Shown: in pieces, positions 15,509 through 64,000 of the stretch | Position numbering within the stretch: the first letter of the stretch is position 1 | How the letters are laid out: each line of letters begins with the position of its first letter | NCBI GenBank assembly: GCA_020853395.1 | Contig: JADYYY010000007.1 | Coordinates: 186,001-250,000 of the forward strand | DNA length: 64,000 nt | Source of the DNA: Acidobacteriota bacterium | Lineage (GTDB): Bacteria; Acidobacteriota; Vicinamibacteria; Vicinamibacterales; SCN-69-37 | Direction of reading: 5' to 3' | Notes under the pieces: model-generated | Seen by the model: only the letters and a program-made list of their open reading frames with translations | What the model was told of the DNA's origin: nothing | Database searches by the model: none | Translations under genes and position numbers: made by a program

Positions 15509-15567
15509 GTGGCCTCCGGACGTCGCATGCGGACGGCTCATTCTACGCGCGACCCGGCGGCCGGCCG

Positions 15568-23647: not shown

Positions 23648-23725
23648 CGTACGACAGGTCTGCGGCGGGTACGACAGGCACGGGCGGGTACGACGGGTAC
23701 GACAGGTACGAATGGTACGACAGGC
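23648..23725. repeat. Dispersed 9-bp repeat cluster, copy 2 (degenerate)
   Basis: About seven degenerate copies of GACGGGTAC, the reverse complement of the GTACCYGTC unit, occupy this stretch (for example GTACGACGGGTACGACAGG near 23690). It lies upstream of the YHS gene (minus strand) and before a long pyrimidine tract. It matches the clusters at 2642-2767 and 31917-32790 in unit but lacks the 17-mer CTTGGACCTGTCGTACC. Confidence 0.8.
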
Positions 23726-30439: not shown

Positions 30440-31979
30440 CGGATTCGACGCCCGCCATCAGGCGCATGAGCCGATCCTGCGTCGCCTGAGCGCGCGAGAG
30501 CTCGCCGGCGATCCGGCCGTCGCGGAAGACCAGAATGCGGGTCGACAGATGCAGGATCTCTGGCATCTCGCTCGAGATCAACAGGATGGCGGTGCCGTTC
30601 GCCGCCAGCTCGTCGACGAGCGCGTGGATCTCCGCTTTGGCACCGACGTCGACGCCGCGCGTCGGCTCGTCGATGATGAGCAGCGAACAGCGGGCCGCCA
30701 GCCACTTCGTCAGCACGACCTTCTGCTGATTGCCGCCCGACAGCGCGGCGACCGGCGCGTCGAGCGTTTTCGCTCGCACGCCGAGACGCGAGAACCAGGG
30801 CGCCACGATTCGATCTTCGACCGTGCGGGTGACGATGCCCAGCCGGGCGTGGCGGCCGATGACCGACAGCGCGCCGTTCGCGCGCACGCTCATCGAGGGC
30901 ACGAGCCCCTGGCGTTTGCGGTCCTCGGGGACGAGGCCGATGCCGAGCGCGATCGCGTCGGCGGCGGAGCCCGGGTCGATCGGCGTGCCGCGCAGGAACA
31001 CGCGCCCCGCGGCGCGCGGATCGACGCCGAAGATGGCGCGCGCGACCTCCGACCGGCCGGCACCGACGAGCCCGGCGCAGCCGACCACCTCACCGGCGCG
31101 GACGACGAACGACACGTCGGCGAAGCCGGACGGCGCGCTCAGCCCGTCGACGCGCAGGATCTCGTCGCCCGGCGTGCCCTGCACGTGCGCGGGAAAGTAC
31201 TCGTCGAGCCGGCGGCCGATCATCAGCTCGACGAGCGCCGCCCGATCGAGCGACGCGGCAGGCTGAGTCGCGACGTGCCGGCCGTCGCGCAGCACCGTGA
31301 TCGTGTCGGCGAGCCGGAACACCTCCTCGAGCCGGTGGCTGACGTACAGGCACGTCACGCCGCGCGCGCGGAGCGCGGCGATCAGCTCGTACAGCCGGTC
31401 GGCCTCGTGCTGCGACAGGCTGCTCGTCGGCTCGTCGAAGATCACGACGCGGGCGCCCCGGCCCAGCGCGGCGGCGATCTGCACGAGCTGCTGCTGCGCG
31501 ATCGTCAGCTCGCCGACCGGCCGATCCACGTCGAGCGAGGCACCGATCGCGGCCAGGTGCGCCTCGGCCCGGCGCCGCGTCGCTGCGCGATCGACGACGC
31601 CTCCGCGCCGCGGCATCCGACCGAGGCAAAGGTTCTCGGCGACCGACAGGTTCTCGCAGAACGACAGCTCCTGGTGCACCATCGCGATGCCCGCCGCGAG
31701 CGCGTCGGTCGGCCCACCGAACCGCACCGGCACGCCGTCGATCCGCAGCTCGCCCGCGTCCGGCTGGTGGATGCCGGCCAGCACTTTCGCGAGCGTGCTC
31801 TTGCCGGCGCCGTTCTCTCCGCAGAGCGCGTGACAACTTCCCCGCTCGACCGCCACGCTCACGTCGTCGAGCGCGAGCACGCCGGGAAAGCGCTTCGTGA
31901 TGGAACGGAATTCGGAGACAACGGGGACGACAGGTACGAGGGGTACGACAGGTCCAAGGTGGGCGCTATCGCTGGTCAT
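30417..31979 (-). CDS. Sugar ABC transporter ATPase, duplicated (RbsA-type), with repeat-derived N-terminus
   Basis: This 520-residue protein has two ABC domains. The first has Walker A GENGAGKSTLAK, signature-like LTIAQQQLVQIAAAL and Walker B VVIFDEPTSSLS. The second has degenerate Walker A GLVGAGRSEVAR, ALSGGNQQKVVLTKWL and LLIIDEPTRGVD. This is the RbsA/XylG/MglA type. The only in-frame ATG near the domain is 31979, inside the 9-bp repeat block, so residues 9-21 (GPVVPLVPVVPVV) are repeat-encoded and precede the usual FRSITKRFPGV start. No permease gene is next to it. Its 3' end overlaps the convergent small gene by 23 bases. Confidence 0.88.
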   Translation of the reverse strand: MTSDSAHLGPVVPLVPVVPVVSEFRSITKRFPGVLALDDVSVAVERGSCHALCGENGAGKSTLAKVLAGIHQPDAGELRIDGVPVRFGGPTDALAAGIAMVHQELSFCENLSVAENLCLGRMPRRGGVVDRAATRRRAEAHLAAIGASLDVDRPVGELTIAQQQLVQIAAALGRGARVVIFDEPTSSLSQHEADRLYELIAALRARGVTCLYVSHRLEEVFRLADTITVLRDGRHVATQPAASLDRAALVELMIGRRLDEYFPAHVQGTPGDEILRVDGLSAPSGFADVSFVVRAGEVVGCAGLVGAGRSEVARAIFGVDPRAAGRVFLRGTPIDPGSAADAIALGIGLVPEDRKRQGLVPSMSVRANGALSVIGRHARLGIVTRTVEDRIVAPWFSRLGVRAKTLDAPVAALSGGNQQKVVLTKWLAARCSLLIIDEPTRGVDVGAKAEIHALVDELAANGTAILLISSEMPEILHLSTRILVFRDGRIAGELSRAQATQDRLMRLMAGVESVSVAASG

Positions 31980-32212
31980 CTTCGTCTCGGAAAGGCGCTT
32001 GTCGTACGACGGGTACGACTGGTTCGACGGGTACGACAGGTTCAAGGGGGGCGCTGTCGCGGGTCATCTTCTTCCTCGGAACGGCGCGTGTCGTACGACG
32101 GGTACGACTGGTTCGACGGGTACGACTGGTTCAAGGGGGGCGCTGTCGCGGGTCATCTTCTTCCTCGGAAAGGCGCTTGTCGTACGACGGGTACGATTGG
32201 TTCGACGATGAC
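31917..32212. repeat. Repeat block, left half: 88-89 bp units with 9-bp repeats
   Basis: Three units begin with GGTCATCTTC at 31974, 32062 and 32151 (periods 88 and 89). Each carries CTCGGAAAGGCGCTTGTCG or a variant, GTACGACGGGTACGA and GGTTCAAGGGGGGCGCTGTC. The 17-mer shared with copy 1 occurs here in reverse at 31942-31958. The first 60 or so bases encode the N-terminus of the ABC ATPase. Orientation is opposite to the right half, with the turnover at about 32212-32222. Confidence 0.9.
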
Positions 32213-32221
32213 TTCAACCTA

Positions 32222-32790
32222 GAACCTGTCGCACCTGTCGTCCCTGCTCGTACCTGACGAAGATGACAACCGGACGCGACAAGCGCCTCTTCGCGACAAC
32301 GACGCCTACCTTGGACCTGTCGTACCCCTCGTACCCGTCGTACCTGGTCGTACCCGACGAAGATGACCACCGGACGCGGCAAGCGCCTGTCCACGGCAAC
32401 GTATAGCTACCTCGAACCCGTCGTCCCTGTCGTACGACGAGCGCCTCACCGAGATGAAGATGACAGCGGACGCGACGAGCGCTTCTCCTCGACGACCAAC
32501 ACCTACCTGGGACCCGTCGTACCCGTCGCACCCGTCGTCCCTGTCGTACAACGACCGCCTCACCGAGAAGAAGATGACAGCGAACGCGACGAGCGCTTCT
32601 CCGCGACGACCGACACCTACCTTGGACCTGTCGTACCCGTCGCACCCGTCGTCCCTGTCGTACAACGACCGCCTCACCGAGAAGAAGATGACAGCGGACG
32701 CGACGAGCGCTTCTCCTCGACGACCAACACCTACCTGGAACCTGTCGTACCCGTCGTACCGGTCGTACCGGTCGTACCCGTCAGAAACCG
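32222..32790. repeat. Repeat block, right half: 114-bp units with 9-bp repeats
   Basis: At least three tandem units with a period of exactly 114 bp are marked by TGACAGCG at 32461, 32575 and 32689. More diverged units lie before 32461. Each has GATGACAGCGGACGCGACGA, CGCTTCTCC, ACACCTACCTTGG, four to five GTACCYGTC-type 9-mers and CCGCCTCACCGAGAA. The 17-mer CTTGGACCTGTCGTACC occurs at 32310-32326 and 32621-32637. Since 9 and 114 are multiples of three and the unit lacks stops in several frames, long spurious frames run through. The last unit encodes the C-terminus of the substrate-binding protein. Confidence 0.92.
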
Positions 32791-41157: not shown

Positions 41158-42543
41158 CTACGGTCGCGGATCGTACGTGAAGGCGAGGATCGCCCCTGGA
41201 TGAGCTCGCGAGCTGCTGTCGGTCGCCACGAAGATCGTCCGCCCGTCCGGATGCACGAGCACGTCGCGGTACCGGTTGTCGGTCTTGAAGTAGGCCAACG
41301 GCTCGCCCGCCGCGCTCTCGCCGCGGCCGTCGAGCTTCACGCGGTACACGACGCCGCGAATCAGGCTCGTCACGAGGATCGATCGGCGCCATCCTGGAAT
41401 GCCGCGCTCGCTGTCGTAGACGTCGACGCCCGACGGCGCGATCGTCGCGTTGCCGGCTTCGTTGAACCGGTAGTCCGGGCCGACGGTGAAGAACGTCTGG
41501 AGCGGCGGCACGAAGGCCGGGTCGTTCCAGGCGCTCTCCTGCTGCTGCGGCACCGACGGCGGCGCGACGATCGCATCGAACTTCAGCGACGCGCAGGGCG
41601 CCGGTGCCGACTTCGACCAGTCGGCATACGCGTAGACGCGATCGTCCTTGTAGCCGGCGACGAACGGCCAGCCGTAGTTGCCGCCAGCGCGGATGCGATT
41701 GACCTCGTCGTCCATGCTGGGTCCGTGCTCGGATTCGTACAGCGCGCCATCGGCCGCCTGCGCGAGCCCTTGCGGATTGCGATGGCCGTAGCTGTAGATG
41801 TGGCTGCGCACGCCGTTGAACGACGGGTTGTCGGCCGGGATCGATCCGTCGAGATTCAGCCGCAGGATCTTGCCCTGATACTTCGGCGGCCAGTTGCGGG
41901 CCGCCACGTCCTCGGCCGTCGGGAGGTCCTGCGCGAGGATGGGCGAGCAGTACAGCGCGAGCTGGTTGTATCCCTGATCGCCCAATGAGAGGTACAGCGT
42001 GTCGTCGCGGCCGAAGACGAGCCGCGCGGCCACGTGGTCGGCGCCGGCCGGCAAGTTGTCGATGAGGTCCACCGGCTCGCCGAGCGTGCCGATCGCCGCG
42101 TCGTAAGTGTAGCGCCGCACCTTCAGCCGCCGCACCTCGCCCGCACCGGGATCGGCGTCGTACGTGAACGCGACGAACACGTGGTCTCGTCCGACGCGGC
42201 GCAGGAAGTCACGGTGAAACGCGAGGCCGAGCACACCGTCCTGCGCGTGCCGCTGGATGGCCTCCGGGATGGTCGTGACCACGGTGATCCGGCCATCGTC
42301 CGGATTCATCCGGACGATGCGGCGGGCGACGCGCTCGGTCACCCACAAGCTGCCGTCTGGCGCCCAGCGCATCTGCCACGGCGCGCCGAGCCCGGCCGCG
42401 ACGAGCCGCATCCGAAACGGCTCCGGGCCAGTGGCGACGTTCTGCGCCGACAGGGCCACGACCGCCGCGGCGACGCTCAGCACCGCGCAGATCGGTCCCG
42501 TCCTCGACGTGCGTCCTCGACGGCGTGCCATTGGCAGGTTCAT
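41158..42543 (-). CDS. PQQ-dependent aldose/sorbosone dehydrogenase (GSDH type)
   Basis: This 461-residue exported beta-propeller has the soluble glucose/sorbosone dehydrogenase pattern: LGAPWQMRWAPDGSLWVTER, QDGVLGLAFHRDFL, YSYGHRNPQGLA (Arg/Asn near PQQ), ESEHGPSMDDEVNRIRAGG, NYGWPFVAGY and VTSLIRGVVYRV. The signal is TGPICAVLSVAAAVVALSAQ. It oxidises an aldose in the periplasm and reduces a haem acceptor, here most likely the cytochrome c encoded 28 bases downstream. It is longer than the bare propeller because of loops around 205-290. It is divergent from the PHP gene across only 37 bases. Confidence 0.9.
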   Translation of the reverse strand: MNLPMARRRGRTSRTGPICAVLSVAAAVVALSAQNVATGPEPFRMRLVAAGLGAPWQMRWAPDGSLWVTERVARRIVRMNPDDGRITVVTTIPEAIQRHAQDGVLGLAFHRDFLRRVGRDHVFVAFTYDADPGAGEVRRLKVRRYTYDAAIGTLGEPVDLIDNLPAGADHVAARLVFGRDDTLYLSLGDQGYNQLALYCSPILAQDLPTAEDVAARNWPPKYQGKILRLNLDGSIPADNPSFNGVRSHIYSYGHRNPQGLAQAADGALYESEHGPSMDDEVNRIRAGGNYGWPFVAGYKDDRVYAYADWSKSAPAPCASLKFDAIVAPPSVPQQQESAWNDPAFVPPLQTFFTVGPDYRFNEAGNATIAPSGVDVYDSERGIPGWRRSILVTSLIRGVVYRVKLDGRGESAAGEPLAYFKTDNRYRDVLVHPDGRTIFVATDSSSRAHPGAILAFTYDPRP

Positions 42544-42580
42544 TGTAGCGAACCTGCCGGGCGCGCCATAGCATAGCGGC

Positions 42581-43612
42581 ATGCATCGCTCCGATCGGGC
42601 TCGGCTCGGCGTGCTCGCCCTCCTCGTCTCGGCCGCGCTCGTCCCGCTCGGCCGCCGCGCCGGTGCGGTCCCTTCGCCGCACGCGATCCAGTCGCAGCCC
42701 GGCGCCCTGCGCTGGTTCAAAGGCAACACGCACACGCACACGATCAACAGCGACGGCGACAGCACGCCCGACGACGTCGTCCGCTGGTATCGCGAGCACG
42801 GCTACCAGTTCGTCGTGCTGACGGATCACAACTACCTGACCAGCACGGACGGGTTGAACGCGCTGCACGGCGCCGACGACAAGTTCCTCGTGGTGCGCGG
42901 CGAGGAGGTCACCGACGCCATCGGGGACAAGTCGCTCCACATCAACGGGCTGAACCTCGCCACGAAGGTCGAGCCGCAGCACGGCGCGTCGGTGCTGGAC
43001 ATCCTCCAGCGGAACGTGGACGCGATCCGTCGCGCCGCCGGCGTGCCGCACATCAACCACCCGAACTTCCGGTGGTCGGTCACGGCCGACGAGCTGCGAC
43101 AGGTGAAGAACAACCGCCTGTTCGAGATCTACAATGGCCATCCCGAGGTCAACAACGGCGGGGGCGGCGGCGTTCCGGGCCTCGAGGAGGTCTGGGACGC
43201 GATCCTCTCGCGCGGCACGCTGCTCTACGGCATCGCGGTCGACGACGCGCATCACTTCAAGCGGCCGGGTGATCCCAACGCGTCCGGCCCCGGCCGGGGA
43301 TGGGTGGTCGTGCGGGCCACGGCGCTCGATCCGGCGGCCGTCACTCGCGCGCTCGATCAGGGCGAGTTCTACGCGTCGACCGGCGTGGAGCTGAACGCGT
43401 ACGAGGCCACCGACACCGGCATCACGGTGTCGGTCAAGCCTACGACCTTCTCGAAATACCGCATCCAGTTCGTGGGCAAGGAGGGACGGCTGCTCGCCGA
43501 GAGCGCGACGCCGTCGGCGACCTACACGTTCCGCGGCGGCGAGGGCTACGTCCGCGCGCGCGTGCTCGAGAGCAACGGCCGGATGGCGTGGACGCAGCCG
43601 GTGATGCGATGA
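42581..43612 (+). CDS. Exported PHP-domain metal-dependent phosphoesterase
   Basis: This 343-residue protein has a signal peptide (GVLALLVSAALVPLG) and a PHP fold. Metal ligands are in WFKGNTHTHTINSDG, FVVLTDHNY, VRGEEVT, GVPHINHPNF and VDDAHHF. The last 90 residues form a beta-sandwich-like region (ITVSVKPTTFSKYRIQFVGK, YVRARVLES). PHP proteins hydrolyse phosphoesters with two or three metal ions; the exported variant is common in Bacteroidota and Acidobacteriota and has no known substrate. Its start is 37 bases from the divergent sugar dehydrogenase start, so the two share a promoter region. Confidence 0.85.
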   Translation: MHRSDRARLGVLALLVSAALVPLGRRAGAVPSPHAIQSQPGALRWFKGNTHTHTINSDGDSTPDDVVRWYREHGYQFVVLTDHNYLTSTDGLNALHGADDKFLVVRGEEVTDAIGDKSLHINGLNLATKVEPQHGASVLDILQRNVDAIRRAAGVPHINHPNFRWSVTADELRQVKNNRLFEIYNGHPEVNNGGGGGVPGLEEVWDAILSRGTLLYGIAVDDAHHFKRPGDPNASGPGRGWVVVRATALDPAAVTRALDQGEFYASTGVELNAYEATDTGITVSVKPTTFSKYRIQFVGKEGRLLAESATPSATYTFRGGEGYVRARVLESNGRMAWTQPVMR

Positions 43613-45694: not shown

Positions 45695-46459
45695 TCACTT
45701 CCGGAGCGTCGTGAGACAGTCCTGGAGTCCGGCGCGCAGGGCACCGCCGTCCGATCCGAGCGCGACGAACGAGTAGCCCCAGTCGCGGCATCGCGGCACG
45801 AGCGCGGGGTCGTGCACGAGGATGCCGGCCGCCTTGCCGTGCGCGCGGGCCGAGGCGCTCACGCGACGGAGCGCCTCGACGAAGCGCGGATGATCGTACT
45901 GGTCCGGCAGGCCGAGGGTGTACGAGAGGTCGGTCGGTCCCACGAACAGAACGTCGGCGCCGTCGACGGCGGCGATCGCGTCGACGTGATCGACGGCGGC
46001 GGGCGTCTCGATCTGCAGCACCGCGAGCAGCCGCTCGTGCGCGTGCGCGAAGTACTCGCCGAACGCCGCGCCGAATGCCGATCCGCGATGGAACTTCGCC
46101 ACGCCCCGCACGCCCCTGGGCGGATAACGCATCGCGGCGACCGCGCGCGCCGCCTCGTCCGGCGTGCTCACGTACGGCACCATCACGCCGCAGGCGCCCG
46201 CGTCGAGCACCCGCTTGACGCGCGCCGCGTCGTTCGCGGCGATGCGCACAATCGGCACGGCGGGCGTCGCCGACGCTGCCTGCAACTGATGCAGCAGCGT
46301 GTCCTCGCCTCCCGGCCCGTGCTCGTGATCGATCAAGAGGAAGTCGAAGCCGACCAGGCCGGCGATTTCGACGACGAGCGGCGACGCCAGGTTCAGGAAC
46401 GTGCCGCACGTCCACTCACCGGCGAGCACCCGCGCGCGGAATTCCGGCGATGGTTTCAT
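45695..46459 (-). CDS. HpcH/HpaI-type class II aldolase
   Basis: This 254-residue aldolase of the HpcH/HpaI/GarL family cleaves 2-keto-3-deoxy or 4-hydroxy-2-oxo acids to pyruvate and an aldehyde with a divalent metal. Motifs are LVGFDFLLIDHEHGP (catalytic His), GACGVMVPYVSTPDEA, RGVRGVAKFHRGSAF, LLAVLQIETPAAVD (metal Glu), DVLFVGPTDLSYTLGLP (metal Asp) and a final VALGSDGGALRAGL. No signal peptide is present, so it is cytoplasmic. The start, ATG 46459, lies 141 bases from the divergent GGDEF-EAL gene. Confidence 0.9.
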   Translation of the reverse strand: MKPSPEFRARVLAGEWTCGTFLNLASPLVVEIAGLVGFDFLLIDHEHGPGGEDTLLHQLQAASATPAVPIVRIAANDAARVKRVLDAGACGVMVPYVSTPDEAARAVAAMRYPPRGVRGVAKFHRGSAFGAAFGEYFAHAHERLLAVLQIETPAAVDHVDAIAAVDGADVLFVGPTDLSYTLGLPDQYDHPRFVEALRRVSASARAHGKAAGILVHDPALVPRCRDWGYSFVALGSDGGALRAGLQDCLTTLRK

Positions 46460-46599
46460 GCGCGCGCATCGTACACCGGCCGCGTTCAAAATTGTGGACG
46501 ACCGTGCGTTTCTGTCGGCGGCGCCGGTGCGGTCCCGTGCAGAAACGTGATCGCCGCTTCCCGGCCCGAGGGCACACCTCTTGCTCCCTCCCGCGGCCG

Positions 46600-49510: not shown

Positions 49511-50866
49511 ATGACCGCCATTCCGCGCCGCAGCCTTCTGAAACTCTTCGGGGGCGCCGGGTTCGCCGGCGTCTCGACGCGCCGGATGCTCGCCGCCGAG
49601 GCGGCCGCCGCGCAGGCCACGCGCGCGCTGCCCACGCCGCGCATCCGCGACGTGAGCGTGATCGAGACCGCGCCGGGCGGCGTGAGGCTCACGGTCGTCA
49701 AGATCACGACCGACCAGGACGGCCTCTACGGCTACGGCTGCGCGACCTTCACGCAGCGCGCCGATCTCGTCAGGCCGGCCGTCGAGCGCTATCTCAAACC
49801 GTTCCTCGTGGGTAGACCGGCCGATCGCATCGACGACACCTGGCAGGCGCTGTACTTCAGCTCGTACTGGCGCAACGGGCCGGTGCTGAACAACGCGATC
49901 AGCGGCGTGGACCAGGCGCTCTGGGACATCAAGGGCCGTCAGGCCGGCATGCCCGTGTACCAGTTGCTCGGCGGCAAGTGCCGCGAGGCCGTCGACTGCT
50001 ACGGACACGCAGCCGGCAACGAGATCCCGCAGGTCATCGAGAACGCGAAGAACTACATCGCGCAGGGCTTCCGTCACGTCCGCGTCCAGGTCGGCGTGCC
50101 GGGCATGGCCGGCTACGGCGCGGGTGGCGGTGCGGCGGCGGCGCAGGCCGCGCTCCACAACGCGCCGGTCTTCGAGCCGATGGCGTACTACCGGCGCGCC
50201 ATGCGGCTCTTCGACGCGTGCCGCACCGAGCTCGGCGACGAGATCGAGCTGCTCCACGACGTGCACGAGCGCGTGTCGCCCAACCAGGGCGTCCAGTTCT
50301 GCAAGGACGCCGAGCGGTTCAAGCTCTTCTTCGTCGAGGACCCGGTGTCGCCAGAAGACATCGCGTACTTCCGCCAGATTCGACAGCAGTGCAGCACGCC
50401 GCTCGCCATGGGCGAGCTGTTCAACAGCCCGCACGAGTGGCAGCCGCTCATCGCCGAGCGGCTGATCGACTACATCCGCATCCACGTCTCGCAGGCCGGC
50501 GGTCTCACGCCCTGCCGGAAGATCGCTGCCTTCGCCGAGCAGTTCGGCGTGAAGACGGCCTGGCACGGGCCCGGCGACGTCTCGCCCGTCGGCCACATGG
50601 CGAACGTCACGCTCGGCATCGCGTGCTACAACTTCGGCATCAACGAATACTCGGCGTTCAACCAGAATCACCAGGAGGTCTTCAAGGGCTGCCCGGTGAT
50701 GAAGAACGGCTACCTGTGGGTGAACGAGTCGCCGGGATGGGGCATCGAGATCGACGAGAAGGCCGCGGCGAAGTTCCCGTTCGGACGCGAGACCGGCGAG
50801 CGCGGCCAGCTCAACGGCGGATGGGGCGAGGTGCGTCGCCGGGACGGCACGGTGATCAAGCAGTAG
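49511..50866 (+). CDS. Tat-exported enolase-superfamily dehydratase (mannonate-dehydratase/RspA-like)
   Basis: This 451-residue protein of the mandelate racemase/enolase superfamily is closest by motif to ManD/RspA: ISGVDQALWDIKGRQAGMPVY, LGGKCREAVDCYGHAAG, ELLHDVHERVSPNQ (metal Asp plus catalytic region), FFVEDPVSPED (metal Glu), PLAMGELFNSPHEW (metal Glu) and TAWHGPGDVSPVGHMAN. The N-terminus IPRRSLLKLFGGAGFAG is a twin-arginine signal, so it should act in the periplasm, unlike classical ManD. ATG 49511 follows GGAG. A sugar acid is the likely substrate but cannot be specified. Its 3' end overlaps the convergent glycosyltransferase gene by 11 bases. Confidence 0.87.
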   Translation: MTAIPRRSLLKLFGGAGFAGVSTRRMLAAEAAAAQATRALPTPRIRDVSVIETAPGGVRLTVVKITTDQDGLYGYGCATFTQRADLVRPAVERYLKPFLVGRPADRIDDTWQALYFSSYWRNGPVLNNAISGVDQALWDIKGRQAGMPVYQLLGGKCREAVDCYGHAAGNEIPQVIENAKNYIAQGFRHVRVQVGVPGMAGYGAGGGAAAAQAALHNAPVFEPMAYYRRAMRLFDACRTELGDEIELLHDVHERVSPNQGVQFCKDAERFKLFFVEDPVSPEDIAYFRQIRQQCSTPLAMGELFNSPHEWQPLIAERLIDYIRIHVSQAGGLTPCRKIAAFAEQFGVKTAWHGPGDVSPVGHMANVTLGIACYNFGINEYSAFNQNHQEVFKGCPVMKNGYLWVNESPGWGIEIDEKAAAKFPFGRETGERGQLNGGWGEVRRRDGTVIKQ

Positions 50867-55947: not shown

Positions 55948-56415
55948 TCAGATATACGCCACGCAATCGATCTCGACGAGGCCGCCGTCGGGCATCACGA
56001 CGCCGCCGATCGTCGTGCGGGTCGGGAACACCGGTCCGAAGCGCTGCCGATAGACGGCGTTCATGGCGTCGAAGTGCCGGATGTCCGCGAGGTACACGTT
56101 GACCTTGAGGACCTTGTCGAGCGCCGAGCCGGCGGCCTTCAGCGACTCCTCGACGTTGTCGATCGTCTTCGTCACCTGCGCGGTGATGTCGCCCTGGAAA
56201 CCGGCGCCGACGCCCTTGCCGGAGATGAAGAGCAGGTTGCCGTAGGCGACCTCCGGGCTGTACGGCGGCGGAGGGTTGCCGGGAGACTGACGGAAGAAGC
56301 GACGCTCCTGTCGGGCGCCGCCGGCGGGGGTTTGCGCTGCAGCCGCGGCGGGCGCGCCGACGGCCAGCGCGGGGAGTCCGGCGGTGAGGAACGTTCGGCG
56401 AGTCTTCTTTGGCAT
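55948..56415 (-). CDS. Tat-exported RidA-family protein
   Basis: This 155-residue protein has a twin-arginine signal (KKTRRTFLTAGLPALAVGA) before a RidA/YjgF domain: SPGNPPPPYSPEVAYGNLLF, FISGKGVGAGFQGDITAQVT, TIDNVEESLKAAGSALDKVL, NVYLADIRHFDAMNAVY, FPTRTTIGGVVMPDGGLVEI (catalytic Arg and Glu region). RidA hydrolyses 2-aminoacrylate-type enamines or imines that PLP enzymes release, normally in the cytoplasm. This one is exported and is encoded 22 bases after an exported PLP enzyme, so a joint periplasmic pathway is likely. ATG 56415 gives the cleanest Tat signal. Confidence 0.88.
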   Translation of the reverse strand: MPKKTRRTFLTAGLPALAVGAPAAAAAQTPAGGARQERRFFRQSPGNPPPPYSPEVAYGNLLFISGKGVGAGFQGDITAQVTKTIDNVEESLKAAGSALDKVLKVNVYLADIRHFDAMNAVYRQRFGPVFPTRTTIGGVVMPDGGLVEIDCVAYI

Positions 56416-56437
56416 CGACGGGCCTCGAAAATGGATG

Positions 56438-58129
56438 CTATCCGGCAGAGCGGGCACTGCCGGACGCGCGGCGTTTCGCGGTCCAGGTCGCCTTGAGGTA
56501 CTCGCCCATGTCGAGCGCGCCCGACATCGCGTCACCTGCGAGCGTGCCCGTGAACCGGTAGCTGAGCGAATCCCCGTGCCGCTCGGTCACGGTGCTGCCG
56601 AACGCCACGGCGTCGCCGCTCACCGTCCCGGTGAGGTCGCGGCTCTGGAAGTCGCCCTGATGGACTCCGGTCAGGCGGCCGTTGTTCTGGAACACGGAGA
56701 TGGTGTGCGTCGAGGCGCTCGCGACGTACTTGATCTGGACGTCCCAGACGCCGGTCAGATCGCCGGCAGGAGGCAGCACCGGCGCTGGCGGCTTCAGCGT
56801 GTGGGCCGCCGACAGCACGGCCGCGAGCCGATCGGCGACGATCTTCTCGTCGCCGGGCGCCATCGTCGACGGCACGAGCGCGATGCCGGTGTCGCCGGCG
56901 AGCGGTGGGCCGCCGCCACGCCCGCCGTTGCCGCCGCTCGCGCTGAGCAGGATGCGCGGATCGGTGCTGTCGAGCAGTTGCACCACGTCGGCCCCGGTGA
57001 GGCCCAGCTTCTGCGCTTCCCAGCGCACGGTGAGCTGCGGGCTGCGGTTGCTCCGGCCGCCGGGCTCGGTGCGAAGGTTCGTCGTGACGCCGGCGATGGT
57101 CGACACGCGATCGGCGATGAACCGGCACCGGGCGATCCAGTCGCGCCACTGCGCCTCGTGATCGCGCGCCGCCCAGCTCTCGACGGCCACGAGCATCCCG
57201 ATCATCTCCTCGCGGCCGACCTTCATCGCGCGCGCATAGCCGTGGTGCGGCGCGCTGTGCACCCAGGCCGCCTGCACGAGGTCCTTGCGGCCGAGCAGCA
57301 AGCCGGCGCTCTGCGGCCCGCGGATGAACTTGCCGCCGCTGTACGCGACGAGCGTGGCGCCGCGCTGGAGGTGGAGGTTCGGGATCGTCAGCACTTCGGC
57401 TGCCGCGTCGACGAGCACCGGCACGTCGTGGCGCTTCGCGACGGCCGCGATGGCCTCGGTGCCCATGGGCCCGCTCTCGTTCTCCGGCTTCGCGAAGATG
57501 TAGATCATCGCGGTCCGCGGGCCGATCGCCCGTTCGAGCTCGTCCGGCGTGTCGACCTCGACGATCCGCACGCCCACCGCGCGAATGGCCGCGTCGTAGA
57601 CGTTGCGCGAGCTGCCCGGGATGATCACCTCGTCCTTCGCGAATCCCTCGAGGTTCGGGATGCGAACGTGCCGGTCCGGATTGCCGCCCGCGACGCACGC
57701 GGCCGTCGCGTGCGACATCGCCGCCGCGCAGCCGGCGCTCACCATGCCCCACTCGGCGCCGGTGAGCTCAGCCAGCCGCTGCCCCACGGCGTGCATCACC
57801 TCGTCGAGCTGCGCGTGCTGGAGGTTGGCCCGCGTCTTCGCCGCCTGCACTTCGGGCAGCTCGATGTTGCCGCCCAGCACGGTGAGCGTGCCGCGGCAGT
57901 TGACGAACGGCCGCACGCCGATGGCTTCGTAGACGTTCGGCGCCGCCGCGATGGTGCTCCCGCCGATCTTCTGCGCGGCCTGGTCCATCGCCCCCGGCAT
58001 CGTTGCGGCCGCCGCGGGATTGCGACCGGCGAACCACCCCATGCCGCCGGCCAGGCCCGCCCATCCGAAGAGCTGCCGCCGGTTCAACTGTCGCAGGGAC
58101 TTCGGCACCCAAGAGTCCGGGGTGGACAT
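56438..58129 (-). CDS. Tat-exported SelA/DgaE-like PLP enzyme with C-terminal beta domain
   Basis: This 563-residue protein starts with a twin-arginine signal (LRQLNRRQLFGWAGLAGGMG). Its PLP-dependent core belongs to the SelA/D-glucosaminate-6-phosphate ammonia-lyase branch: RGTLTVLGGNIELPEV, GMVSAGCAAAMSHATAACVA, IPGSSRNVYDAAIRAVGV, LVDAAAEVLTIPNL (Asp241 near the PLP ring N) and VAYSGGKFIRGPQSAG (Lys267, Schiff base). Residues 455-560 are an extra lipocalin-like beta region (DLTGVWDVQIKYVASASTHT). The family usually works in the cytoplasm, so export is odd. ATG 58129 has GAGGAGG upstream. It precedes the exported RidA gene and is divergent from the exported amidohydrolase gene. Confidence 0.87.
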   Translation of the reverse strand: MSTPDSWVPKSLRQLNRRQLFGWAGLAGGMGWFAGRNPAAAATMPGAMDQAAQKIGGSTIAAAPNVYEAIGVRPFVNCRGTLTVLGGNIELPEVQAAKTRANLQHAQLDEVMHAVGQRLAELTGAEWGMVSAGCAAAMSHATAACVAGGNPDRHVRIPNLEGFAKDEVIIPGSSRNVYDAAIRAVGVRIVEVDTPDELERAIGPRTAMIYIFAKPENESGPMGTEAIAAVAKRHDVPVLVDAAAEVLTIPNLHLQRGATLVAYSGGKFIRGPQSAGLLLGRKDLVQAAWVHSAPHHGYARAMKVGREEMIGMLVAVESWAARDHEAQWRDWIARCRFIADRVSTIAGVTTNLRTEPGGRSNRSPQLTVRWEAQKLGLTGADVVQLLDSTDPRILLSASGGNGGRGGGPPLAGDTGIALVPSTMAPGDEKIVADRLAAVLSAAHTLKPPAPVLPPAGDLTGVWDVQIKYVASASTHTISVFQNNGRLTGVHQGDFQSRDLTGTVSGDAVAFGSTVTERHGDSLSYRFTGTLAGDAMSGALDMGEYLKATWTAKRRASGSARSAG

Positions 58130-58209
58130 GCACGCCTCCTCTGGCGGGAGCGACAAGAAAAACACCTCGGCCTGGGTTTGTCAATCGTCAGCATCGCGCG
58201 TCGGCATGG

Positions 58210-58272
58210 CCGATCTCCCGATGCCCCGCAGCGCGATGCCCCGATGTCCCGATACCCGATGTCCCGATGCCA
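58210..58272. repeat. Tandem degenerate (CCCGATG)-type repeats in a divergent promoter
   Basis: About six imperfect copies of CCCGATG/CCCCGATG occur in tandem, for example CCCGATGCCCCGCAGCGCG, then GATGCCCCGATGTCCCGATA and CCCGATGTCCCGATGCC. They fill much of the 180-base gap between the divergent PLP-enzyme (start 58129) and amidohydrolase (start 58310) genes. The spacing of 7-10 bp could make these regulator-binding sites or simple-sequence DNA; which is not clear. Confidence 0.6.
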
Positions 58273-58309
58273 GTGTGTTACCATCCGCTCCTCTTCCGGG
58301 AATGGCTGA

Positions 58310-59632
58310 ATGAGACGTGTCGCCGTGTGCCTGCTCGGTCTTGCGCTGGGGCCGGCGACGAGCGCCCAGCAGCCAGCCTACGATCTACTGCTCAAAGGCG
58401 GCCACGTCGTGGACGGCCGCAGCTCGCTCAGCGCGATCCGCGACGTCGCCATCAAAGGTCGAACGATCGCGGCGATCGCCGAGAACATCCCGGCCGCGCG
58501 GGCGGCGCGCACCGTGGACGCGCGCGGCCTGTACGTCGCGCCCGGCCTGATCGACATCCACGTCCACGTGTTCACCGGCGAGAAGACCGCGACCTACGCG
58601 GGCGGCGACCTGAGCGTCTGGCCGGACAACTACGGCCTGCGCACGTGCACCACGACCATGGTCGACGCGGGCAGCTCGGGGTGGCGCAGCTTCGAGGACT
58701 TCAAACGCCGCGTGATCGATCGGTCGAAGACGCGCGTCCTCGCGTTCCTCAACATCGTCGGCGTCGGCATGCGCGAGGGGCAGCTCGAGCAGAACGTCGA
58801 GGACATGGACGCGCAGGCGACGGCCGACATGGCCCAGAAGTACAAAGACCTCGTTGTCGGCATCAAGAGCGCGCACTACAACGGCCCAGGGTGGACGCCG
58901 TACGAGCGGGCCGAAGCGGCCGGCCGCATGGCGAACGTGCCCGTCATGGTGGACTTCGGCGGCAACGTCCGGAACGGCCGGAGCATCATGGAGCTCTTCA
59001 CGAAGTACTTCCGGCCGGGAGACATCTACACGCACATGTACGGCGGCGTCCGCGGCGAGCAGGACGCCGCGACGCGGGGGCCCAGCGCCGCGTTCATCGA
59101 AGGACGCAAGCGCGGCATCGTCCTCGACGTGGGCCACGGCGGGGGAAGCTTCCGGTGGAGCGCGGCGGTGCCGATGGTCGAGGCGGGGCTGCTGCCCGAT
59201 TCGATCTCGACCGACCTGCACACGTCGAGCTCGCAGTCGGGCATGAAGGACCTGCTCGACGTCATGAGCAAGTTCCTGGCGCTCGGTCTGTCGGTCGAGG
59301 ACGTGCTCGTCCGCGCGACCTGGAATCCCGCGCGGGAGATCAAGCGCGACACGCTCGGGCATCTCTCGGTCGGCGCACCGGCCGACGTCGCCGTGCTCCG
59401 CGTCGAGGACGGGCAGTTCGGCTTCTACGATCAGGTCAACGCGCGCGTGGCCGGCACGCGCCGGTTCGCGTGTGAGATCACGCTGCGCGACGGGACGGCC
59501 GTCTGGGACGCGAACGCGCGGGCGAAGGACGCCTTCGATCCTCAGGCGCCGCTGCCGGCGCCCGGTGCCGGGCTGTCGTTTCCGGCCGCGTCACCGGCCG
59601 GTTCGCCCGCCACTCCGCCGCCGGCGCGCTGA
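58310..59632 (+). CDS. Exported amidohydrolase (deacetylase-type)
   Basis: This 440-residue amidohydrolase-superfamily protein has a signal peptide (RRVAVCLLGLALGPATSAQ). The first metal site is GLIDIHVHVFTGE (His84 and His86), and the core includes VVGIKSAHYNGPGW (candidate bridging Lys), YTHMYGG, VLDVGHGGGSF and SISTDLHTSSSQS with the catalytic Asp. The C-terminus has GAPADVAVLRVEDG and a Pro/Ala tail. It most resembles the amidohydrolases encoded with SelA-like enzymes in the D-glucosaminate-6-phosphate pathway of enterococci. Here too the gene is beside such an enzyme, but both products are exported. The start follows GGGAATGGCTGA with weak complementarity. Confidence 0.87.
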   Translation: MRRVAVCLLGLALGPATSAQQPAYDLLLKGGHVVDGRSSLSAIRDVAIKGRTIAAIAENIPAARAARTVDARGLYVAPGLIDIHVHVFTGEKTATYAGGDLSVWPDNYGLRTCTTTMVDAGSSGWRSFEDFKRRVIDRSKTRVLAFLNIVGVGMREGQLEQNVEDMDAQATADMAQKYKDLVVGIKSAHYNGPGWTPYERAEAAGRMANVPVMVDFGGNVRNGRSIMELFTKYFRPGDIYTHMYGGVRGEQDAATRGPSAAFIEGRKRGIVLDVGHGGGSFRWSAAVPMVEAGLLPDSISTDLHTSSSQSGMKDLLDVMSKFLALGLSVEDVLVRATWNPAREIKRDTLGHLSVGAPADVAVLRVEDGQFGFYDQVNARVAGTRRFACEITLRDGTAVWDANARAKDAFDPQAPLPAPGAGLSFPAASPAGSPATPPPAR

Positions 59633-59677
59633 TGCCCACGCCCTCCGTCTCGCTCGCGCCCGTCGTCTCATCACCGT

Positions 59678-59702
59678 CCGTTCGTTCGCTCGTTCGTTCG
59701 TG
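59678..59702. repeat. GTTC tetranucleotide microsatellite
   Basis: About five GTTC/GCTC units (CCGTTCGTTCGCTCGTTCGT then TCGTG) lie 40 bases upstream of the PQQ dehydrogenase start, in the 109-base gap after the amidohydrolase gene. Length variation of such a tract by slippage could alter promoter spacing; that is speculation. Confidence 0.6.
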
Positions 59703-59741
59703 TCGTCATCCATCCCTATCGTGTCGTTCCAGGAGTCATCG

Positions 59742-62060
59742 ATGTCCGATCGCACTTCGTCTTCTCGACAGCGAAGCCACGTGACGTTCGCCGTCGCCGC
59801 CGTCGCGCTCACCGCGATGGCCGCCGGCGGCGCGCTCACGGCCGCCCGATCCACCAACTGGTGGTGGGACAATCTCGGCGGCCCCGACAGCTCGCACTTT
59901 TCCGCGCTCGATCAGATCAACAAGTCCAACGTGAACCAGTTGCAGGTCGCCTGGTTCTATCCGCACGGCACCACCGGCTTCAACCCGATCGTCGCCGACG
60001 ACATGATGTTCGTCAGCGGCCGGAACAGCTCGCTCATCGCGCTCGACCCGACCACCGGCAAGGAGATCTGGATTCACGAGAACATCCCCGGCCTGTCGGT
60101 GCGCGGCGTGAACTACTGGCAGAGCGAGGACGGGAAAGACAAGCGGCTGATTTTCACGACCACGCCCGGCCCGTTCCTCCAGGAGATCGACGCCCGCACC
60201 GGCAAGTCGATCACGAGCTTCGGCACCAACGGGTACGTGGACCTGCGGGAGGGTCTGCGCAATGCCGGCATCGGCTTCCGCGTGCCCAATCCCGGCAAGG
60301 TCTACAAGAACACGATCATCCTCGGCTCGGCGACGGGCGAGGCCTGGATCTCGCCGCCGGGCGATCTCCGCGCGTTCGACGTGGTCACGGGCAAACGGCT
60401 CTGGCAGTTCCACACCGTCCCGGAGCCGGGCGAGTTCGGCTACGAGACGTGGCCGAAGGATGCCTACAAGTACGTCGGCGGCGCGAACACCTGGGGCGAG
60501 ATCGCGATCGACGAGGAGCGCGGCATCGGGTACTTCCCGACCGGCTCGCCGACCTACGACTTCTACGGCGCCGACCGCGCCGGTCAGAACCTCTTCGGCA
60601 ACTGCCTCATCGCGCTCGATCTCAAGACCGGCAAGCGCCTGTGGCACTTCCAGACGATCCACCACGACCTCTGGGATCTCGACAACGTGTCGGCGCCTCA
60701 GCTCGTCACCGTGCGACAGAACGGCCGCCGCATCGACGCCGTGGCGCACGCCGGCAAGACGGGCTTCCTGTACGTCTTCAATCGCGTCACGGGCGAGCCG
60801 CTCTGGCCCATCGAGGAGCGCGCCGTGCCGAAGAGCGACGTGCCCGGCGAGCAGTCGTGGCCGACCCAGCCGTTCCCGACGAAGCCCGAGCCGTTCGCGC
60901 GGCAGAGCTTCACGGCCGACGACATCAACAAGTGGCTCCTCACGCCCGAGCAGCAGGCCGAGCTGCGCGAGCGGGTCTTGAAGGCGCGCAACGGCACCGG
61001 CCCGCAGGGCGGCATCTTCATCCCGCCCGCGGTCGGCGAGGACTCCATCTCGATGCCAGGCAATCAGGGCGGCTCCAACTGGGGCACGACCGCCGCCGAT
61101 CCCGACAAGGGCCTCGTCTTCGTGCTCGGCATCGACGAGGTCGCGATCCTGAAGCTCGTCAACGTGAAGGACGCGGGCGCGGCCGGGCGCGGCGGGTTCG
61201 GCAACCAGGCCGGCGCGCAGGCCTATGCGCAGTACTGCGCGGCCTGCCACGGCCAGAACCTCCAGAACCCGCTCCCCGGCGTGCCGAACCTCACCGGCGT
61301 GACGACGCGCGTCGCCGACGATGTGATCCGGACGATGGTCACGTCGGGCGGCGGCCAGATGAGGCCGGTGCCGGGCATCACGGATCTCGAGCTCGCGGCG
61401 GTCATTCAGTTCCTCTCGGCCGGCGCGGGCCGCGGCGGCGGCTTCGGACGCGGCGGCGCGAACGTCGTGTTCCCGCCCGGACCGGTCGTCGCCTCAGGCG
61501 GCGTGCCGACACCCGCGCTCGCGCCCGACACCCGGCCGGAATTCGGCGGCCGCGGGCCGACGGGCGGCAACGCCGCGTATCCTGCCGGCGTCGAGGCGCC
61601 GGCAATGCGCTTCGCGACCGGCTACAACGTCATGGGAACATCGACCAGCCCGCCGTACTCGCGACTCACGGCGTACGACCTCAATACCGGCACGATCAAG
61701 TGGCAGGTGCCGGTCGGCGATGACCCGCAGACCGTCGCGCGCGGCGGCCCGGCCAACACCGGCGCGGTCGGCCTGCGCACCGGCATCATGCCCACCAAGG
61801 CCGGCCTCGTGTTTCTCGCCGACGGCGACGGCAAGGTACGCGCCTACGACGAGGAGACCGGCAAGGTGCTGTGGACCGGGACGACACCCGCCGGATCGCG
61901 CGGCGTGCCGGCCGTCTATCAAGCCAAGGGCAAGCAGTACCTCGTCGTCGTCGCCCAGCCCGGCGGCGGCCGAAACGGGGGCGGACGCGGCGGCGAGGCC
62001 CCGACCCTCGCGCCGGATGCGCCGCGCGGCTACATCGCCTTCGCGCTGCCGTCGAAGTGA
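59742..62060 (+). CDS. PQQ-dependent dehydrogenase with inserted cytochrome c domain
   Basis: This 772-residue exported quinohaemoprotein has a signal anchor (VTFAVAAVALTAMAAGGALTA) and PQQ propeller blades (GGPDSSHFSALDQINKSNV, IALDPTTGKEIWIHENIP, GKRLWHFQTIHHDLWDLDN). A cytochrome c insert has CAACH at 499-503, and the last blades follow (LTAYDLNTGTIKWQVPVGD, GKVRAYDEETGKVLW). A Gly/Arg-rich linker flanks the haem domain. It oxidises an alcohol, aldehyde or sugar in the periplasm and feeds electrons to the respiratory chain. A GGAG site precedes ATG 59742. It shares order with the exported amidohydrolase upstream and the RraA-like gene 10 bases downstream. Confidence 0.92.
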   Translation: MSDRTSSSRQRSHVTFAVAAVALTAMAAGGALTAARSTNWWWDNLGGPDSSHFSALDQINKSNVNQLQVAWFYPHGTTGFNPIVADDMMFVSGRNSSLIALDPTTGKEIWIHENIPGLSVRGVNYWQSEDGKDKRLIFTTTPGPFLQEIDARTGKSITSFGTNGYVDLREGLRNAGIGFRVPNPGKVYKNTIILGSATGEAWISPPGDLRAFDVVTGKRLWQFHTVPEPGEFGYETWPKDAYKYVGGANTWGEIAIDEERGIGYFPTGSPTYDFYGADRAGQNLFGNCLIALDLKTGKRLWHFQTIHHDLWDLDNVSAPQLVTVRQNGRRIDAVAHAGKTGFLYVFNRVTGEPLWPIEERAVPKSDVPGEQSWPTQPFPTKPEPFARQSFTADDINKWLLTPEQQAELRERVLKARNGTGPQGGIFIPPAVGEDSISMPGNQGGSNWGTTAADPDKGLVFVLGIDEVAILKLVNVKDAGAAGRGGFGNQAGAQAYAQYCAACHGQNLQNPLPGVPNLTGVTTRVADDVIRTMVTSGGGQMRPVPGITDLELAAVIQFLSAGAGRGGGFGRGGANVVFPPGPVVASGGVPTPALAPDTRPEFGGRGPTGGNAAYPAGVEAPAMRFATGYNVMGTSTSPPYSRLTAYDLNTGTIKWQVPVGDDPQTVARGGPANTGAVGLRTGIMPTKAGLVFLADGDGKVRAYDEETGKVLWTGTTPAGSRGVPAVYQAKGKQYLVVVAQPGGGRNGGGRGGEAPTLAPDAPRGYIAFALPSK

Positions 62061-62070
62061 GATCGCCATC

Positions 62071-62799
62071 ATGCTGAGATCGTTCACCGTCTTCATCGTC
62101 GTCGTCCTCGCGCTCGCAGTCACGGTACACCGGCCGCTGGCCCAGACCGATCCGCTCATCGCCGGGTTCAAGAAGACGTACCCGGCGTCCGTGTCGGACG
62201 CGGTCGAGATCGTGACCGGCCGCAACGGCGCGATGGGGCACGACATGAAGCTGGTGAACGGCACGTCGATCGTGGGGCGGGCCGTGACGGCGCTCGTCAG
62301 GCCCGCCCCGCCCGAGCAGGCCACGCCGGCGCTCGCGACGAAGCACTCGGTCGAGATGATCGACAACGCGCGCGTCGGCGACGTCGGCGTGATCGTGATG
62401 GAGGGCACGCTCGACATCGCGGCGATGGGCAACCTGATGGCCACCGGCGCCAAGGCGCGCGGCATGGCGGGCGTCGTCCTCGACGGCGCCATCCGCGACG
62501 TCTGGGACATCCGGCGCATGGGCCTGACGGTCTTCGCGCGCTCGGTGTCGCCGCGCACGGCGGTGGGCCACTACGCCACGGTCGCCCGCGATGTGCCGGT
62601 CGAATGCGGCGGCATCACCGTTCGGCCCGGCGACATCATCGTCGGCGACGAGGACGGCGTGGTCGTCGTACCCCAGGAACGCGCGGCCGAGGTGCTCAAG
62701 GCCGCCCAAGATATCGACGCCCGCGAATCCGGCATGTTCCCGTTCATCCGCAGGTTCAAGTCGCTGCAGAAGGCGATCGAGACGTTCAACAGAATCTGA
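62071..62799 (+). CDS. Exported RraA/HMG-aldolase-like protein
   Basis: This 242-residue protein has a signal peptide (RSFTVFIVVVLALAVTVHRPLAQ) and the RraA fold: ASVSDAVEIVTGRNGAM, IVGRAVTALVRP, DVGVIVMEGTLDIAAMGNLMATGAKARGM, VVLDGAIRDVWDI (catalytic Arg-Asp) and GDEDGVVVVPQERA. Family members include 4-hydroxy-4-methyl-2-oxoglutarate/oxaloacetate aldolases and RNase E inhibitors; export makes the enzyme role more likely. It starts ten bases after the PQQ dehydrogenase stop, so the two are cotranscribed. The substrate is unknown. Confidence 0.87.
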   Translation: MLRSFTVFIVVVLALAVTVHRPLAQTDPLIAGFKKTYPASVSDAVEIVTGRNGAMGHDMKLVNGTSIVGRAVTALVRPAPPEQATPALATKHSVEMIDNARVGDVGVIVMEGTLDIAAMGNLMATGAKARGMAGVVLDGAIRDVWDIRRMGLTVFARSVSPRTAVGHYATVARDVPVECGGITVRPGDIIVGDEDGVVVVPQERAAEVLKAAQDIDARESGMFPFIRRFKSLQKAIETFNRI

Positions 62800-62934: not shown

Positions 62935-64000
62935 ATGATGTGCCCACTGCACGCCATGAGCCGTCCACGCGGATCGCCGTTCGCGCTCGCCGTCGTCGTC
63001 GTGCTGTATCTCGCGGTGCAGGCGACGGCGCAGTCGCCGCGCTACACGGCGCGCCAGATCGGTGACATCGTCGAACTGCGCGACGCGCGGGCCGACGTGA
63101 AGGTGTCGGTGCTGACGCCGGTCAGCAACGCCTACGAGATCGTCGTCAAAGGCCAGGACATCCTGCGCAAGCCGTTCGCGTCGCTCGACCAGTTGCGCGC
63201 GAGCCCCGGGCTGAACGGCGTGCCGCTGCTCTGGCCGTTCGCGAACCGGCTCGATGAGCAGGCGTTCTACGCGAACGGCACGAAGTACTCGTTCGATCCA
63301 GGGATCGGCAACACCGGGCGCGGCGCGATCCCGATCCATGGATACCTGACGAGCGCGCGCGACTGGAAGGTCGTCGAGGCCAACGCCGGCGCCAGCGGCG
63401 CGTGGGTCACGAGCCGGCTCGAGTTCTTCCGCAATCCCCGATACATGAAGCAGTTCCCGTTCGCCCACGTCCTGACGATGACGTATCGGCTGTCGGACGG
63501 CCGGCTGGAAGTGCGCACGAGAATCGAGAACCTGAGCCAGGAGCCGCTGCCGGTGACGATCGGGTTCCATCCGTACTGCCAGCTCACCGACTCGGCGCGC
63601 GACGCGTGGACGCTCTCGCTCGCGGCGCGCACGCACTGGCGGCTCGACGACCGAAAGATCCCGACGGGCGAAAACGAGCCGATCGAGCGCCTGCTGCCGG
63701 CGCCCGCCCGCGTGCCGCTCGCCGGCGTGGCGCTCGACGACGTCTTCAGCGATCTCGTGCGCGACGCGGACGGACGCGCCACCATGACGCTCTCCGGCGT
63801 GCGGCAGGCGATCGACGTCGCGCTCGGTCCGAAGTTCCGGACCGTCGTCGTCTACACGCCGCCACTCGGCGGCCGGGGTGCGACAGGCTCGCCCGCCGAA
63901 GCGCGCGGCAGCATCGCGATCGAACCGATGGCCGGCATCACGGATGCGATGAACCTGGCCCATCGCGGGCTTTACAGGGATCTGCAGAGCATCCCGCCGG
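62935..64000 (+). CDS. Exported aldose 1-epimerase-like protein (3' end outside window)
   Basis: The frame from ATG 62935 is open to the end of the window (355 codons seen). It has a signal peptide (RGSPFALAVVVVLYLAVQATA) and the mutarotase pattern: VPLLWPFANRLDEQAFYANG, GAIPIHGYL (His), VTIGFHPYCQL (catalytic His) and SIAIEPMAGITDAMN (catalytic Glu). Aldose 1-epimerases interconvert alpha and beta sugar anomers. ATG 62935 has GGGAG five bases upstream; ATG 62920 and ATG 62956 are alternatives. It lies 135 bases after the RraA-like gene and may continue the exported catabolic cluster. Confidence 0.85.
   Translation, partial: MMCPLHAMSRPRGSPFALAVVVVLYLAVQATAQSPRYTARQIGDIVELRDARADVKVSVLTPVSNAYEIVVKGQDILRKPFASLDQLRASPGLNGVPLLWPFANRLDEQAFYANGTKYSFDPGIGNTGRGAIPIHGYLTSARDWKVVEANAGASGAWVTSRLEFFRNPRYMKQFPFAHVLTMTYRLSDGRLEVRTRIENLSQEPLPVTIGFHPYCQLTDSARDAWTLSLAARTHWRLDDRKIPTGENEPIERLLPAPARVPLAGVALDDVFSDLVRDADGRATMTLSGVRQAIDVALGPKFRTVVVYTPPLGGRGATGSPAEARGSIAIEPMAGITDAMNLAHRGLYRDLQSIPP

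Follow-up and report, generated by a model that had tools for sequence, protein, structure and literature searches.

Organization of the Locus

We analyzed a 64,000-nucleotide stretch of the genome of an Acidobacteriota bacterium (contig JADYYY010000007.1, positions 186,001 to 250,000 of the forward strand), here called the window, which belongs to a 4.28 Mb genome of 99.9% completeness. At positions 55948-62799 lie five adjacent genes for a RidA protein, a SelA/DgaE-like pyridoxal 5'-phosphate (PLP) enzyme, an amidohydrolase, a pyrroloquinoline quinone (PQQ) quinoprotein and an RraA-like protein, which the original prediction for this DNA had described as an exported catabolic module. All five were confirmed at these coordinates, with their families assigned by Pfam and NCBIfam, and all carry export signals as had been claimed (Table 1). 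The genes form two divergent units separated by a 180-bp intergenic region in which no sigma-70-like promoter was found. One unit, on the minus strand, encodes the PLP enzyme and RidA; the other, on the plus strand, encodes the amidohydrolase, quinohaemoprotein and RraA-like protein. Of the five genes, only those for the amidohydrolase, the PLP enzyme and RidA make up the conserved unit, referred to below as the triad.

Table 1. Features of the triad locus and of its surroundings in the window.
Feature	Position	Strand	Remarks
RidA (Rid/YjgF/L-PSP family)	55948-56415	-	Own Tat signal TRRTFLTAG; Pfam, NCBIfam
SelA/DgaE-like PLP enzyme	56438-58129	-	Tat signal LNRRQLFGWAG, RR codons 58076-58081
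Intergenic region of the divergent units	58130-58309	.	Degenerate CCCGATGC tandem repeat at 58210-58271
cog3964/PRK09237 amidohydrolase/deacetylase	58310-59632	+	Sec signal
Exported PQQ beta-propeller quinoprotein with inserted cytochrome c domain (CAACH)	59742-62060	+	Pfam, NCBIfam
RraA-like aldolase family protein	62071-62799	+	Sec signal; optional partner
Exported aldose 1-epimerase-like protein, continuing past the window end (L005:8957-10048)	62956-64000	+	PF01263; possible neighbor only
Tat-type enolase-superfamily (MR_MLE) sugar-acid dehydratase-like protein	49511-50866	+	

Export Signals

The leaders of RidA (MPKKTRRTFLTAGLPALAVGAPAAAAAQ) and of the PLP enzyme (..LNRRQLFGWAGLAGGMGWFAGRNPAAAA) resemble signals for twin-arginine translocation (Tat), and the N-termini of the amidohydrolase, the PQQ dehydrogenase and the RraA-like protein are of the general secretory (Sec) type. 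Tat signals were judged by their conservation across relatives. In an alignment of 23 homologs of the PLP enzyme with 35-64% identity to the first sequence, R17 and R18 are invariant in 23/23 while the remainder of the leader is variable, and for that reason the Tat assignment exceeds what chance would give. In a wider set of 46 sequences, of which 45 come from named genomes and one is the window protein, the two arginines are retained in 45 and 44, respectively, the exceptions being one RK and one sequence without an aligned start. Twin arginines are also present in 34-35 of 38 partner RidAs. Additional RidA copies in these neighborhoods have, in some cases, a Sec-like leader instead, and where the N-terminus of a partner amidohydrolase is intact, its leader is Sec-like. 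TatC is encoded in the window's genome. The PLP enzyme and RidA are thus well supported as predicted Tat substrates, in agreement with the original prediction. In three short PLP homologs (L026, L027 and L033) the Tat motif is followed by a possible lipobox, which suggests membrane-anchored versions of the enzyme.

Conservation of the Gene Neighborhood

Neighborhoods were compared in 81 loci, made up of the window locus and 80 named loci, many of them on short contigs, from Acidobacteriota, Bacteroidota, Actinomycetota (Nonomuraea, Actinomadura and Streptomyces niveus), one Balneolaceae and one locus labeled Litorilinea. An amidohydrolase of the same subfamily is found near the PLP gene in 41/81 and a RidA in 21/81, separated from it by a median of 191 and 257 bp and on the strand of the PLP gene in 56/61 and 18/22 cases, respectively. 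All three members occur together in 22 loci, a count that includes both L044 and L134, which are apparently the same locus. In 20 PLP-centered regions of relatives, several of which share one genus or one genome, RidA was present in 12 and the amidohydrolase in nine, whereas neither was present in 20 arbitrary 20-kb control regions drawn from only two of the relatives' genomes (Fisher p = 4.5e-5 and 0.0012, respectively).

A conserved triad of predicted exported proteins is well supported, and as judged from these loci it recurs in at least three phyla, Acidobacteriota, Bacteroidota and Actinomycetota. The expectation of a conserved gene neighborhood held, and its spread reaches well beyond Acidobacteriota. 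As for the five-gene exported module itself, the deacylase, the DgaE-like PLP enzyme and RidA stood, the quinoprotein did not and the RraA-like protein is weakly placed. Within Acidobacteriota the PLP gene is patchy, being present in 9/149 genomes at a strict cut-off. Three Bacteroidota loci (L093, L097 and L100) contain arrays in which between four and six amidohydrolase copies lie among three PLP genes, which suggests expansion for several substrates.

The PLP Enzyme, RidA and the Amidohydrolase

The PLP lysine of the window enzyme is K267 in the motif SGGK (codon 57329-57331), and it is invariant in 46/46 sequences. NCBIfam DgaE/SelA models were matched below their curated cut-offs, at 163.3 and 157.9 bits (the cut-off of TIGR01437 is 385.3), and the closest named relatives are from Acidobacteriota. 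In a search with the AlphaFold model (mean predicted confidence, pLDDT, 86.7), the best match in the PDB was DGL (7lc0), with a target-normalized template modeling (TM) score of 0.87, followed at a nearly equal score by Cap15 (8t7j). The window enzyme shares with DGL the fold and the PLP lysine, with homology over residues 63-385, but is only 28% identical to it in the structural alignment and has in addition a Tat leader and an extra C-terminal domain. The latter (residues 460-553 of P0002, window 56471-56752) is an all-beta domain of ~95 residues with eight strands, mostly of high confidence, which has no match in Pfam and is found in the long but not the short PLP homologs.

The residues by which the enzyme departs from DGL are of particular relevance. 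In DGL, whose substrate is D-glucosaminate-6-phosphate, protonation of the product at C-3 falls to His163 and the H163A mutant releases an enamine rather than an imine, and Arg301 lies near the phosphate of the docked substrate (PMC9529869). The His162/163 pair is replaced in the window enzyme, and a histidine occurs in that region in 3/46 sequences and is absent from 43/46. A PLP family without the DgaE proton-donor histidine would explain a dedicated RidA. The position of Arg301 is occupied by Q, with positions 332 and 346 being outside the aligned part of this comparison, and the loss would be expected if the substrate is extracellular and carries no phosphate. A second Tat-type PLP paralog of 47% identity was noted in the same genome (L004:8938-10647, minus strand), and no RidA or amidohydrolase was seen beside that gene. 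In-frame stop codons had been flagged in homologs from L002, L010 and other loci; the one at L002 was checked, and the gene ends there at its natural stop.

The window RidA (P0001) reached 81 bits against PF01042, above the gathering score of 27.3, and 77.4 bits against TIGR00004, under the curated cut-off of 106.25; it is by far the best of three PF01042 matches in the genome. Its R134 corresponds to R105, which is needed for enamine/imine deaminase activity in RidA, and this arginine is conserved in 37/37 aligned members without a gap; the catalytic glutamate (equivalent to E120) is retained as well. The amidohydrolase, of which the genome has one full-length copy, exceeded the curated cut-off of NCBIfam PRK09237 (418.4 versus 371 bits), and its closest structure is 2ogj. 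All residues of its metal site, HxH, Lys, His, His and Asp, are present, and across the family the six positions are conserved in 65, 65, 57, 65, 56 and 65 of 65 members.

Proposed Pathway and Alternatives

The observed genes, families, conserved export signals, neighborhood and catalytic residues are consistent with the following route. The Sec-exported amidohydrolase would take the acyl group off a D-configured N-acyl alpha-amino acid. The PLP enzyme, which would fold and load its PLP in the cytoplasm before leaving by Tat, would eliminate water from the resulting beta-hydroxy-alpha-amino acid and probably release an enamine, since its family lacks the proton-donor histidine of DgaE, and the Tat-exported RidA would convert the enamine by hydrolysis into a 2-keto acid plus ammonia. 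Among 2-acetamido-2-deoxy-aldonic acids, the class most likely to contain the substrate, N-acetyl-glucosaminate (GlcNAc1A) and its galacto epimer are candidates, and the route would turn them into acetate and ammonia together with 2-keto-3-deoxy-gluconate (KDG) or -galactonate. The keto acid may then enter the cell and be phosphorylated, or the RraA-like protein may cleave it. For this species, all of the reactions are our inference, as are the identity of the substrate, release of the enamine, uptake of the product and whatever part the quinoprotein, the epimerase or the RraA-like protein may play. The original prediction had the PLP enzyme eliminate ammonia, which was loosely put, as DgaE-type enzymes eliminate water and ammonia leaves when the enamine or imine is hydrolyzed (PMC9529869).

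Several observations point to a sugar acid. Both of the nearest structures of the PLP enzyme, DGL and Cap15, use polyhydroxylated beta-hydroxy-alpha-amino acids. All four actinobacterial loci carry an RraA-like gene beside a gene for a PfkB kinase that, among solved structures, is matched best by a KDG kinase, and a galactonate-type transporter of the major facilitator superfamily (MFS) is encoded in two of these loci as well. Homologs of MR_MLE sugar-acid dehydratases are found in seven named loci and gluconolactonase-like (SGL) genes in five. The conversion of a 2-acetamido-2-deoxy-aldonate to a 2-keto-3-deoxy-aldonate is the best single explanation suggested by these comparisons, and we consider the chances that it is correct to be about even. 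The fuller proposal, that in at least three phyla a hitherto undescribed extracytoplasmic pathway converts N-acetyl-2-amino-aldonic acids to 2-keto-3-deoxy-aldonates by means of a Tat-exported PLP ammonia-lyase that lacks the proton-donor histidine and obligately hands a free enamine to a Tat-exported RidA, is plausible but more tentative.

A number of results weigh against this proposal. Approximately half of the PLP loci have no amidohydrolase or RidA in the surrounding sequence examined, and Arg226 of the DGL carboxylate site is retained in only 25/46 PLP sequences. The amidohydrolase is not of the subfamily of OngB, the deacetylase of a known GlcNAc1A pathway, its match to PpOngB being limited to the N-terminal 67 residues (E 6.7e-6). 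The KDG-type kinase is present only in the four related actinobacterial loci and not across the neighborhoods generally, and glycoside hydrolases of families GH18 and GH20 are likewise not general in them, GH18 occurring only at L055. Oxidation of an aldose in situ is unsupported because the quinoprotein, as described below, is not enriched near the PLP gene. In addition, other cog3964 enzymes act on N-acetyl-D-amino acids and acetyl-mandelate, so that a plain D-amino acid is possible as the substrate.

The last point leads to an alternative in which the substrates of the exported triad would be N-acyl-D-amino acids that carry a leaving group at the beta position; N-acetyl-D-serine or D-threonine derived from cell walls or peptides are examples. 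Their degradation would proceed through deacylation, dehydration to 2-aminoacrylate-like enamines and hydrolysis of these by RidA to pyruvate-type keto acids. Such enamines are classic RidA substrates (PMC12172467; PMC9529869). The link of the cog3964 family to N-acetyl-D-amino acids fits this alternative, as does the finding that no sugar enzyme is constant among the neighbors. Since the nearest PLP relatives use polyhydroxylated substrates, and the KDG-type kinase, the galactonate-type transporter and the MR_MLE and SGL genes mentioned above are found in some of the loci, we regard it as rather unlikely.

Two further possibilities concern the PLP enzyme itself. Its structural match to Cap15 is close to that to DGL in score and PLP oxygenases are established, so it may be an oxygen-dependent oxygenase/decarboxylase working in an oxygen-exposed periplasm, with RidA treating an imine by-product. 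We think this improbable, as NCBIfam favors the DgaE models and the Cap15 product is a carboxamide with no enamine release described, which would leave the conserved RidA partner unexplained. A racemase, transaminase or other non-lyase, with RidA serving general detoxification and the neighborhood reflecting shared regulation only, would be in keeping with the catalytic diversity of fold-type I PLP enzymes and with the score of this one under every curated NCBIfam cut-off. Across phyla, the genes for RidA and the amidohydrolase lie close to the PLP gene as in an operon, and export of all three is matched, which makes such an arrangement improbable.

Relation to Known Systems

The triad is an exported variant of known catabolic chemistry, assembled from different subfamilies. 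In the functionally proven pathway of Pseudoalteromonas prydzensis for chitin-derived GlcNAc1A, which consists of OngB, OngC, OngD and KdgK and yields KDG, the RidA protein OngD is essential and its role is stated as unknown (PMC9537276). Like the triad, that pathway combines an amidohydrolase-superfamily deacetylase, a PLP deaminase and a RidA, and it demonstrates that pathways of this kind exist, but its enzymes are predicted to be cytoplasmic whereas those of the triad are predicted to be exported. The components differ as well: OngB is a D-aminoacylase-type amidohydrolase of subtype V (Cys/His/His), whereas the window amidohydrolase belongs to cog3964 with Lys186 in its metal site, and OngC is described as a D-amino-acid deaminase, whereas the window PLP enzyme is DgaE/SelA-like. 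EF_0837 and Atu3266 (cog3964) are of the same subfamily as the window amidohydrolase by the PRK09237 match, although the score for the EF_0837 model itself was below cut-off; unlike them, the window protein is predicted to be Sec-exported. Amidohydrolases of the EF_0837 type adjoin SelA-like genes, in line with the original prediction, which mentioned such pairs in enterococcal glucosaminate loci.

Cap15, a PLP- and O2-dependent monooxygenase-decarboxylase, has the same fold as the window enzyme and belongs to the SelA-like family; its substrate, a uridine-derived beta-hydroxy-alpha-amino acid on a sugar frame, is likewise of the kind proposed for the window enzyme. It differs in being biosynthetic and oxygen-using, and we know of no export of it and of no described RidA partner. 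PvdN, which acts in pyoverdine maturation, is a PLP enzyme exported by Tat, but it is engaged in siderophore tailoring, belongs to another branch of fold-type I and, to our knowledge, has no amidohydrolase or RidA partner. A search of open-licence papers only, which is weak evidence of absence, returned no description of a system in which RidA and a SelA-like enzyme are both exported.

The deacetylase, the ammonia-removing PLP enzyme and RidA are usually intracellular, and RidA has been investigated as a protein that protects the cytoplasm from reactive enamines, whereas all three are export-tagged here. If the proposal is correct, enamine chemistry would also be run and guarded outside the cytoplasm by an exported RidA and PLP lyase, and soil Acidobacteriota, Bacteroidota and Actinomycetota would strip nitrogen and acetyl groups from oxidized amino sugars extracytoplasmically. 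It would also provide a pathway with a known RidA partner in which the reason for the RidA requirement, a missing histidine, is directly testable, and may help to explain the role of RidA in the cytoplasmic GlcNAc1A pathway.

Neighboring Genes and Other Observations

The quinoprotein, which the original prediction had included as a pathway step, was ruled out as a core member by the control comparison, being present in 4/20 PLP regions and in 4/20 control regions. It scored below the curated cut-offs of TIGR03074 and TIGR03075 (335.7 versus 832.65 and 218.5 versus 480.05 bits), and PqqD-type domains are present in the genome. If oxidation is part of the pathway at all, a position ahead of deacetylation, where it would turn an aldose into an aldonate, suits it better than a later one. 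The other proposed step, cleavage by the RraA-like protein, received weak support, with the gene in 9/81 named loci and in 3/20 PLP regions versus 0/20 controls (p = 0.23).

A search of the window's genome for KDG kinase gave just weak sugar-kinase matches, the best of which covered two thirds of the query at 33% identity. The MR_MLE protein of the window is 56-57% identical to homologs in the PLP/amidohydrolase loci L034 and L035. The window also encodes an HpcH/HpaI-family aldolase without an evident signal peptide (45695-46465, minus strand), from a family that includes 2-keto-3-deoxy-sugar-acid aldolases, and a glucose/sorbosone dehydrogenase (GSDH)-type protein (41158-42765, minus strand). 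The sole GH20 beta-N-acetylhexosaminidase detected in the genome lies at 13940-15700 (minus strand), 41 kb from the triad. A linkage to chitin was considered and, with this GH20, the single GH18 gene beside L055 and no enrichment, it amounts to a hint only. Near a sugar ATP-binding cassette (ABC) transporter there are tandem repeats of 89 bp and 114 bp (31921-32207 and 32412-32777), with 3.2 copies each and a 91-92% match, and a short unit of similar, GTACGACGG-like sequence is found again around 23649-23721.

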